DNA from: Candidatus Magasanikbacteria bacterium RIFCSPHIGHO2_01_FULL_33_34
GTDB lineage: Bacteria > Patescibacteriota > Patescibacteriia > Magasanikbacterales > UBA922
Direction of reading: 5' to 3'
DNA length: 41,112 nucleotides
Assembly: GCA_001782825.1 (NCBI GenBank)
Contig: MFPS01000002.1
Span: 1-41,112, forward strand
Under the pieces are notes generated by a model. The model searched no databases and was not told the DNA's origin. It saw only the letters and a program-made list of their open reading frames with translations. Shown piece after piece: positions 39,049 through 41,112 of the stretch (the stretch's first letter is position 1; every line of letters begins with the position of its first letter). The position numbers and the translations under genes are program-made.

Positions 39049-39621
39049 TTATACTGGTTCCTCATAAAAAACTGGCTCATCATCCCCCAAAGACTCTTCT
39101 TCCCAAACTTGGTTTTTTTCTTCACCTGATTTCTGAGGAATAATTTTTGGTTCTATATCTTTTACCATATCTTCATCTACTTCATATGGTTTACTAATTT
39201 CTTTTACATTACTCAAAGATTCATTACCAACCCCTTCATAATCAAAAAATTCAGCTAAACCACCCTCTGATTCTTTAACTTCGTCTGTAAAGTCAATTTC
39301 AGATTCATCAAATTTATCACTTAAAACATTGCCAGCACTAAACCAACTTCCACCTATATCTCTGCCACCTTCTTCATCAACAAAATCATCATATATATCA
39401 TCATCTTCAAGTTTGGTATTGGCTCTCCAGATAGCAATATCACGATTTATTTGATCAAGCAATTGTTTATCAGACAGATTCCGAACATCTCGTCTATTAT
39501 CCAAAAGCATTTCATATTCATCAACATTCATTATTACAATATCCTCCCCTTTTTCAGGTTGATGAACTATCAATCTATCTCCTGTTTTTCTAGCTAAATT
39601 TATTAAACGATCCAGTGACAT
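39049..39621 (-). CDS. Phd/YefM-like N-terminus fused to a long acidic tail, unknown
   Basis: 190 residues from the ATG at 39619-39621 (an in-frame TTG just upstream is rejected). Residues 1-45 (RLINLARKTGDRLIVHQPEK, then NVDEYEMLLD) resemble Phd/YefM antitoxin-type DNA-binding proteins with the D-E-Y-E-x-L-L signature. The remaining 145 residues are strongly acidic (many Asp/Glu, few Lys) and probably disordered. No toxin gene neighbours it, so a toxin-antitoxin role is doubtful. It has its own promoter. It lies between tuf and the rRNA region. Confidence 0.75.
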   Translation of the reverse strand: MSLDRLINLARKTGDRLIVHQPEKGEDIVIMNVDEYEMLLDNRRDVRNLSDKQLLDQINRDIAIWRANTKLEDDDIYDDFVDEEGGRDIGGSWFSAGNVLSDKFDESEIDFTDEVKESEGGLAEFFDYEGVGNESLSNVKEISKPYEVDEDMVKDIEPKIIPQKSGEEKNQVWEEESLGDDEPVFYEEPV

Positions 39622-39651
39622 ATTCAAAAAATTAATACTTAAGTTGTAACG

Positions 39652-39681
39652 ATTATATCGCCATACTTATAAATTGGTCAA
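39652..39681 (-). promoter_or_regulatory. Promoter of the acidic Phd-like gene
   Basis: On the minus strand, TTGACC (39676-39681), 18 bp spacer and TATAAT (39652-39657), about 30 nt before the start codon. Confidence 0.75.
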
Positions 39682-39711
39682 GGGTTAAAAAAAGACTTTT
39701 GACCTAAAATT

Positions 39712-39753
39712 GAAAGACCCCCAGAAAAAAATGTTTGTCTTTCTCTTGGGGGT
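39712..39753 (-). other. Possible H-type pseudoknot or alternating hairpin
   Basis: On the minus strand ACCCCCA (39717-39723 complement) can pair with TGGGGGT (39747-39753 complement). GAAAGAC (39737-39743 complement) can pair with GTCTTTC (39712-39718 complement). The two stems interlock, so they either form a pseudoknot or alternate. It is upstream of the mapped promoter of the acidic gene. Confidence 0.35.
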
Positions 39754-39874
39754 GTGGGATTAGCGGAGTCTGTGGGGAAATTTTGTATCGATTACGACAC
39801 ATTATTTCGGTCCAAGCTCTACGCTCTTCCTTATATTTATAATAATTAATAAATAACATTATGTAAATAGACTG

Positions 39875-39883
39875 TGTGGATAA
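39875..39883 (-). promoter_or_regulatory. Perfect DnaA box
   Basis: TTATCCACA on the minus strand, an exact match to the strict consensus. It lies 5 bases beyond the terminator of the candidate ncRNA. Confidence 0.5.
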
Positions 39884-39888
39884 GGTAC

Positions 39889-39911
39889 AAAAAAATAGGG
39901 TCTTGCCCTAT
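39889..39911 (-). terminator. Rho-independent terminator of the candidate ncRNA
   Basis: On the minus strand, ATAGGG-CAAGA-CCCTAT followed by six T. Just upstream is another 8 bp hairpin GGGTTCTC / GAGAACCC (39922-39942), which also has a T run on the plus side. Confidence 0.75.
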
Positions 39912-40097
39912 AAATTAACAAGGGTTCTCATAAAGAGAACCCAGTTTTTTGCTCGATGGAGCTAAGTGATAGATTTCTATTACTTATACTAAGTCTCAGA
40001 AACCTATCACTTTCACTAAAAGTTTTTTTAATTACCCTACATGAGGATAATCCGACAATGTCGTATACTCCCTGCCCTTTTGAGCAGCTCATCTAAC
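39889..40097 (-). ncRNA. Candidate structured non-coding RNA, about 209 nt, unassigned
   Basis: It has a promoter (40104-40132) and a terminator but no open reading frame. On the minus strand it forms a 15 bp stem (39964-39978 with 39998-40012, one G-U pair valid only on this strand). An outer stem GATGAGCT with AGCT-C-CATC (40086-40093 with 39955-39963, one bulge) encloses it, followed by a GGGTTCTC/GAGAACCC hairpin and the terminator. A long central stem with an outer closing stem recalls 6S-like RNAs, but no sequence signature for 6S, SRP RNA, tmRNA or RNase P RNA is visible. Confidence 0.55.
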
Positions 40098-40103
40098 AAA
40101 TTA

Positions 40104-40132
40104 ACCATACCACAAACTAACAATCCTGTCAA
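40104..40132 (-). promoter_or_regulatory. Promoter of the candidate ncRNA
   Basis: On the minus strand, consensus TTGACA (40127-40132), 17 bp spacer and TATGGT (40104-40109). It lies immediately downstream of the 16S terminator and one DnaA box. Confidence 0.6.
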
Positions 40133-40141
40133 CCCTTAGAC

Positions 40142-40150
40142 TGTGGATAA
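40142..40150 (-). promoter_or_regulatory. Perfect DnaA box
   Basis: TTATCCACA on the minus strand, same orientation as the box at 39875-39883 and 267 bases away. It lies between the 16S terminator and the ncRNA promoter. Confidence 0.5.
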
Positions 40151-40151
40151 C

Positions 40152-40175
40152 AAAAAATCGCCTACTAAGCGATTT
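40152..40175 (-). terminator. Rho-independent terminator downstream of 16S rRNA
   Basis: On the minus strand, AAATCGC-TTAGTAG-GCGATTT with a six-T run that begins inside the stem. It lies about 135 nt after the 16S 3' end, with no 23S or tRNA before it. Confidence 0.7.
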
Positions 40176-40259
40176 CTCTTAAACTATTTCTTCCACCGAA
40201 TAAATGTGATAAAGACTAGAACGTCTAATAATCCTGGTCCATGATAGGACCTCTATGTG

Positions 40260-40299
40260 ATCTCACCGAAGTGAGATTTTTTTCTTTCTTCCGAAAGAA
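40260..40299 (-). other. Two tetraloop hairpins in the 16S 3' trailer
   Basis: On the minus strand, TTCTTTC-GGAA-GAAAGAA (40282-40299, GNRA loop) is followed by ATCTCAC-TTCG-GTGAGAT (40260-40277, extra-stable C-UUCG-G loop). These loop types appear only on the rRNA-sense strand, suggesting a processed and folded precursor trailer. A smaller GGTCC/GGACC hairpin follows near 40235-40250. Confidence 0.6.
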
Positions 40300-40309
40300 T
40301 GTACTCCAG

Positions 40310-41112
40310 AAAGGAGGTGATCCATCCACAGCTTCCGCTACGGATGCCTTGTTACGACTTTACCCTAATTACTGACCTCACCTTCAACCCTATACAGGGT
40401 CTTCGGGTGTTGCCAACTTTCGTGGTATGACGGGCGGTGAGTACAAGACCCGAGAACGTATTCAACGCGCCGAGCTGATGCACGTTTACTAGCGATTCCA
40501 ACTTCATGAAGGCGAATTTCAGCCTTCAATCCGAACTGAGATTGGTTTTGAGGGATTGGCTACACCTTGCGGCTTCGCTACCCGTTGTACCAACCATTGT
40601 ATCATGTGTGTAGCCCTGGACGTAAGAGCCATGCTGATTTGACGTCGTCCCCACCTTCCTCCTGCTTGCGCAGGCAGTCTTGTGTGTACAATTTAACACA
40701 CAACGAGGGTTGCGCTCGTTACCCCACTTAAGGGTACACCTCACGGCACGAGCTGACGGCAACCATGCAGCACCTATCTAACACCCTCGAAGGAGGCTTC
40801 CCTTTCAGGTAGCTTGCAGTTAGTAGTTGAGCCCAGGTAAGGTTCCCGCGTATCATCGAATTAAACCACATGATCCACCGCTTGTGCGGGTCCCCGTCTA
40901 TTCCTTTGAGTTTTAACCTTGCGGTCGTACTCCCCAGGCGGTGCACTTAACGCGTTAGCTTTTTTAAACGACACTGAAAGGGTCGATACTTCCAATGTCT
41001 AGTGCACATCGTTTACAGCGTGGACTACGGGGGTATCTAATCCCCTTCGCTACCCACGCTTTCGTCCCTGAGTGTCAGGCATGTTCTAGCAAGCTGCCTT
41101 CGCCTTTGGTGT
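40310..41112 (-). rRNA. rrs: 16S ribosomal RNA, 3' half (partial)
   Basis: It runs from about E. coli position 725 to the 3' end; the 5' half is outside the window. The 3' end (minus strand) GGATCACCTCCTTT keeps the anti-Shine-Dalgarno. Decoding-site A1408, A1492, A1493 and C1400-G1401 are retained. U1409-A1491 replaces C1409-G1491, A921-U1396 replaces U921-A1396, and the helix 24 tip uses G783-C799 and G784-C798, all as compensated pairs. No intron or large insertion lies in this half. The exact 3' end is uncertain by a few bases. Confidence 0.97.

Follow-up and report, generated by a model that had tools for sequence, protein, structure and literature searches.

A predicted small RNA gene between 16S rRNA and tuf in Candidatus Magasanikbacteria, with a paralogue in the same genome and no counterpart in Rfam

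Among the described bacterial RNAs, 6S RNA (SsrS; RF00013), an open-promoter mimic that sequesters RNA polymerase, resembles the RNA reported in this article in its length of about 200 nt, its closing stem formed by the 5' end, its long arm and, possibly, its abundance. The two differ in that our RNA has an extra GC hairpin ahead of the terminator and is matched neither by RF00013 nor by a 6S model of its own lineage. The raiA-motif RNA (ModT) is an orphan structured bacterial small RNA present in thousands of species; like our RNA it is free-standing, structured and recognized by conservation of its structure (PMC11706538), whereas our RNA is so far confined to one lineage of Patescibacteria and has no match in Rfam. 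The likeness to protein-titrating RNAs of the 6S and CsrB type concerns only the proposed action, in which a hairpin holds a conserved site for protein recognition, and the sequence of our RNA lacks the repeated GGA loops of CsrB. Our searches of the open-access literature turned up no described small RNA of Patescibacteria.

The window, that is, the whole stretch of 41,112 nucleotides that was analyzed, is a complete contig (C2) in a 9-contig, 1.0-Mb genome (G000); of the named relatives found, Candidatus Magasanikbacteria bacterium RIFOXYC2_FULL_40_16 is the closest. An Rfam search places the 16S rRNA gene on the minus strand and its 3' terminus at 40310, and the order from 5' to 3' on that strand is 16S, the 16S terminator, a TTATCCACA box, the -35 and -10 elements, the small RNA, a gene for a 192-aa protein, and tuf. 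The features of the locus are the following:

40147..40176 (-): terminator of the upstream 16S unit (hairpin 40176-40154), read from locus L023, offsets 147-176
40142..40150 (-): TTATCCACA box, 9 nt 5' of the -35 element, identified by sequence and by a family-wide pattern of spaced box and TTGACA
40104..40132 (-): putative promoter TTGACA-17-TATGGT (-35 at 40132-40127, -10 at 40109-40104), with the same arrangement in the paralogue
39889..40097 (-): predicted small RNA transcript of ~209 nt, spanning promoter to terminator, z = -7.19, without a credible Rfam match
39951..40097 (-): domain enclosed by an outer stem of 40097-40086 / 39963-39951, whose pair probabilities are 0.4-0.8 and for the most part 0.7-0.8
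40013..40085 (-): small 5' hairpins, from the fold and the comparison of copies, in the window copy and missing from the paralogue
39964..40012 (-): central arm of 16 bp, a 2x2 purine internal loop AG/AA, 5 bp and a 3-nt loop, pair probabilities near 1.0, with covariation
39922..39942 (-): hairpin GGGTTCTC-TTTAT-GAGAACCC, pair probabilities close to 1, stem identical in the paralogue
39888..39911 (-): intrinsic terminator ATAGGG-CAAGA-CCCTAT followed by a run of 7 T, with a similar one in the sister species

A small noncoding RNA gene that constitutes an independent transcription unit, occurs as two paralogues and belongs to a family absent from Rfam is well supported by the analysis; that the unit is transcribed we infer from its signals. 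The structure, the paralogy, the covariation and the promoter-like and terminator-like signals are direct results of computation. The predicted promoter agrees with the consensus at 10 of 12 positions and has TG ahead of the -10 element, which places the predicted start of transcription near 40097 (-). Promoter and intrinsic terminator match their consensus, follow each other in the correct order and lie on one strand, as is expected of a free-standing small RNA. The first-pass annotation had located the gene right after the 16S unit; the position is correct, and since the 16S transcript ends in a terminator of its own (40176-40154), the small RNA is a separate unit. We assign function to the minus strand for two reasons: promoter and terminator both point to it, and a model of the arm (R3) scores higher on it at the window RNA (60 bits versus 31.8 bits on the plus strand), a preference that arises partly by construction, R3 having been built from minus-strand sequences that include the window RNA.

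The box upstream of the promoter is part of a wider pattern. TTATCCACA-like boxes lie 6-13 nt, mostly 7-9 nt, 5' of TTGACA promoters, and across 46 family genomes the spaced combination is matched about 100 times, compared to 1 for the reversed pattern. Promoters bearing the box precede 16S, 23S, rpoB, groES and other genes, and the element may be an unrecognized upstream promoter element of the lineage. The box, with window sites at 40150-40127 (-) and 39883-39862 (-), is similar to a DnaA box. With a promoter of this rRNA and housekeeping class, the RNA is probably abundant and its transcription linked to growth.

Between the small RNA and the gene for the 192-aa protein there are two more promoter-like sites. 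One of them, TTTACA-17-TATTAT with the same upstream box, lies directly after the small RNA terminator, and the stretch that follows it (39685-39832, minus strand) is strongly folded (z = -5.2), with a CCCCC/GGGGG hairpin and a rod that contains a 2x2 A-rich loop. This stretch is possibly a second small RNA, and no counterpart was seen at the corresponding place in the sister species. The 192-aa protein itself (39049-39627, minus strand) has a weakly Phd/YefM-like N-terminus (E 0.009, below the cut-off) and an acidic tail, and the gene order 16S, 192-aa gene, tuf recurs throughout the family.

The predicted minus-strand transcript folds at -75.3 kcal/mol compared to -45.0 +/- 4.2 kcal/mol for shuffled sequences (z = -7.19), and none of 200 shuffles folded as well. 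The opposite strand also has a low value (z = -5.78), which is expected from palindromic stems. The core of the central arm consists of UUUCUG and UAGAAA on either side of the 2x2 purine loop and its 5-bp stem. Among the 16 pairs of the arm there is one G-U inside the helix and another G-U that closes it. In the fold, an A-rich linker (39950-39943) and an AU-rich segment ahead of the terminator are single-stranded. The anatomy agrees well with the first-pass annotation, which had proposed a consensus -35 element with 17-bp spacing, a central stem of 15 bp with strand-specific G-U pairing, an outer closing stem, a further hairpin (here GGGTTCTC/GAGAACCC at 39942-39922) and a terminator with six U, found here as ATAGGG/CCCTAT followed by seven T. 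Its statement that the gene contains no reading frame was incorrect: a frame of 54 codons beginning with ATG runs from 40092 to 39928 (-) within the small RNA, although it has no Pfam match and is not kept in the paralogue.

A second copy was detected in the same genome at C9:65904-65995 (-), downstream of tsf, where a DNA search finds the segment C9:65891-65986 to be 73% identical to the window RNA. It is a complete gene of the same layout, consisting of a TTATCCCCA box, TTGACA-17-TATAAT, the closing stem, the arm, the hairpin GGGTTCTC-TCAC-GAGAACCC and a terminator of its own. The two copies have the same arm core, TTTCTGAGACTT...TAAGTAATAGAAA, whereas five pairs of the outer stem of the arm differ; four of these differences are compensatory and one is compatible (A-U/G-U), so that 100% of the aligned cells remain paired. 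Covariation computed from the two copies alone has a weak shuffle control (39/500). The linkers and apical loops are not conserved between the copies and the 5' hairpins of the window copy are not present in the second one.

We searched for further members of the family with a structure-aware model (R1) built from the two copies; in its seed alignment (A4) one loop base of the window copy was removed to align the GGGTTCTC stems, which affected no pair. R1 finds just the two copies in the source genome and no match outside it in 46 genomes of the family and 86 of the order. DNA similarity search of 39 relatives likewise detected nothing beyond the two own copies, the exact core pattern was absent from the collection of genome contigs searched, R3 gave nothing convincing in 800 kb of one complete family genome (G048), and those gaps between 16S and tuf that were read in other genera hold other genes or nothing and not the small RNA. 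In viral contigs the core pattern occurs in seven stretches, close to chance by a rough estimate, and the flanking sequences do not form the structure.

Over 381 genomes of the class, R1 yields one credible additional match, L178, in another family. Its hairpin reads UUUCUG-AA-GCUUA-AAAGU-UAGGC-AG-UAGAAA and its outer stem is different in sequence but fully paired; it lies in an intergenic unit in which a promoter-like site, a closing stem of 12 perfect bp and a terminator occur on the same strand as the hairpin, which strengthens the case for this match. With L178 aligned, 7 of the 19 arm pairs are changed on both sides, 98.2% of the cells are paired and the covariation score is 0.65 compared to at most 0.25 in slid controls, with 0 of 500 shuffles as high. 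The structure is thus kept by compensatory change, at four pairs between the paralogues and at seven when L178 is included. The match has E = 7e-4 for one genome, with 381 genomes searched; an estimate made after the match had been seen puts at about 0.05 the probability that the 381-genome search meets a hairpin of such geometry and core by chance. Because the structure-aware model favors paired matches and the chance estimate is post hoc, L178 is a probable, tentative distant homologue rather than a proven one. Two other candidates were rejected: L177 (33.7 bits) is the palindrome of an ordinary terminator, whereas L217 (19 bits) is a hairpin ahead of a gene for a small basic protein. The latter hairpin, long and near-perfect and located directly 5' of that gene in a complete family genome (15855-15905), is possibly a cis-regulatory element. 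Overall, stem conservation, by which the first-pass annotation proposed to judge the gene, holds in the paralogue and, less certainly, in the distant homologue.

The sister species (G001), the one further genome of the genus in the comparison, has the same order of 16S, RNA, 192-aa gene and tuf. Its locus contains TTATCCACA, TTGACA with a poorer -10 element, matching 5' and 3' ends, a rod and a GGGGCC hairpin, and its terminator, ATACGG-GAAAA-CCGTAT, is one compensatory pair apart from that of the window RNA. When box, promoter and 5' end are aligned locally the score is 45, where 500 shuffles have a mean of 25, a standard deviation of 4 and a maximum of 47, and the RNA is again strongly folded (z = -7.75). 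The center of this RNA cannot be aligned with that of the window RNA and the arm core is not recognizable there. The position and layout of the gene are thus better conserved than its sequence.

Rfam searches of 39640-40330 with E up to 10 gave no credible match, only chance matches such as NPPA-AS1_3. Models of tmRNA, SRP RNA and RNase P RNA had no match at the gathering cut-off or with E up to 10, and ARAGORN found no tmRNA; the earlier description of the gene as an unassigned structured RNA, free of signatures of these three classes, is borne out by these searches, the paralogue, the covariation and the gene of the same plan in the sister species. A separate observation is that the source genome, although nearly complete, contains no tmRNA that reaches the RF00023 cut-off, the best matches mostly overlapping tRNAs. 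Another is that the 16S gene of one family member harbors a group I intron (L039 165-451; RF00028, 50.7 bits).

The 6S-like role that the first-pass annotation had considered from shape alone deserves particular attention, as the length, the closing stem joining 5' and 3' ends, the rod-like parts and the place among growth-linked genes all fit a 6S RNA. RF00013 has no match at the window RNA (E up to 10) and none elsewhere in this genome. It matched five family genomes below its gathering cut-off, and four of these matches (L133, L135-L137) look like diverged 6S RNAs of Patescibacteria with a closing stem, a central bubble and a conserved ACCCACCUG segment. A lineage 6S model (R2) built from these four has matches in 26 of 39 relatives and locates the 6S RNA of the source genome at C9:10308-10457 (L156, L180) with 83.7 bits and E = 1e-17, and more weakly, with 35.6 bits, that of the sister species. 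With all filters off, the window RNA and its paralogue are absent even among chance-level R2 matches. As the genome has its 6S RNA on contig C9 and R2 finds nothing in the window RNA, the 6S reading falls, and we regard it as very improbable.

Other explanations fare differently. A trans-acting antisense RNA, independent of Hfq and pairing through unpaired sequence such as the linker 39950-39943 or the AU-rich segment ahead of the terminator, is unlikely in our judgment, yet deserves to be taken seriously: antisense regulation is the commonest role of bacterial small RNAs of such size, and both a T-rich 3' end and single-stranded linkers exist. Against it, conservation is found at paired positions while linkers and loops vary between the copies, and a gene for Hfq (PF17209) was not found in the source genome or in 19 relatives, with matches in 5 of 14 controls. 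The RNA could instead be a cis-acting leader or attenuator of the 192-aa gene and tuf, or a trailer of 16S, given that all lie on the same strand in an order that recurs in the family; this is improbable considering that 16S ends at its own terminator, that the RNA carries a promoter and a terminator of its own and is followed by two promoter-like sites before the 192-aa gene, that the paralogue occupies an unrelated locus after tsf, and that the gene order is present in other genera that lack the RNA. A mobile or repetitive palindrome (REP or MITE-like) without RNA function would also suit the finding of two separate copies whose hairpin stems are identical, but the genome contains just these two, each has a promoter and a terminator, and the arm has accumulated compensatory changes, which makes this origin even less probable. 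Lastly, the 54-codon frame has an ATG near the predicted transcript start, and translation of it is close to negligible as an explanation: besides having no Pfam match, the frame is not maintained in the paralogue or in the sister species, and the compensatory changes fit an RNA helix.

We favor the reading that the window RNA is a free RNA of ~209 nt from a new family whose arm is recognized by a protein that the RNA titrates or scaffolds, and we would give this specific mechanism about even chances. More broadly, we read it as a lineage-restricted and probably protein-binding RNA of a new family. The promoter of the rRNA class would lead to high, growth-linked transcription; the 5' end of the RNA would close a domain that carries the long central arm, followed by the GC-rich hairpin and the terminator; a protein would recognize UUUCUG/UAGAAA around the 2x2 purine loop; and the RNA would titrate or scaffold the bound protein. 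A short helix around the purine loop, including a G-U pair, keeps its sequence in both paralogues and in L178, while the apical loops differ (GUA, CAAGA and AAAGU, respectively). Such a sequence fixed inside a helix, with differing loops and linkers, favors protein recognition over an antisense seed. Transcription, abundance, protein binding and target are what we infer, and only the conservation pattern points to docking. The family is thinly sampled, with two copies, one diverged sister gene and one tentative distant homologue, and the fact that the core is unrecognizable in the sister species counts against a strictly required protein site.

What makes this RNA interesting is its place of occurrence and its lack of any counterpart in Rfam rather than a demonstrated new mechanism. 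It is doubtful, though conceivable, that it represents the first described member of an abundant, structure-conserved class of Patescibacteria RNAs with a new recognition arm built on a 2x2 purine loop, fast turnover around a fixed core, and a role as a second growth-linked regulator beside 6S RNA or as an RNA of ribosome biogenesis; a class-wide distribution would hold only if the L178 homologue is real. Its separation from the true 6S RNA of the genome removes the most obvious misreading. A structured family with a paralogue, covariation and a promoter of the rRNA class, in a 1-Mb genome without detectable Hfq, offers a concrete target.
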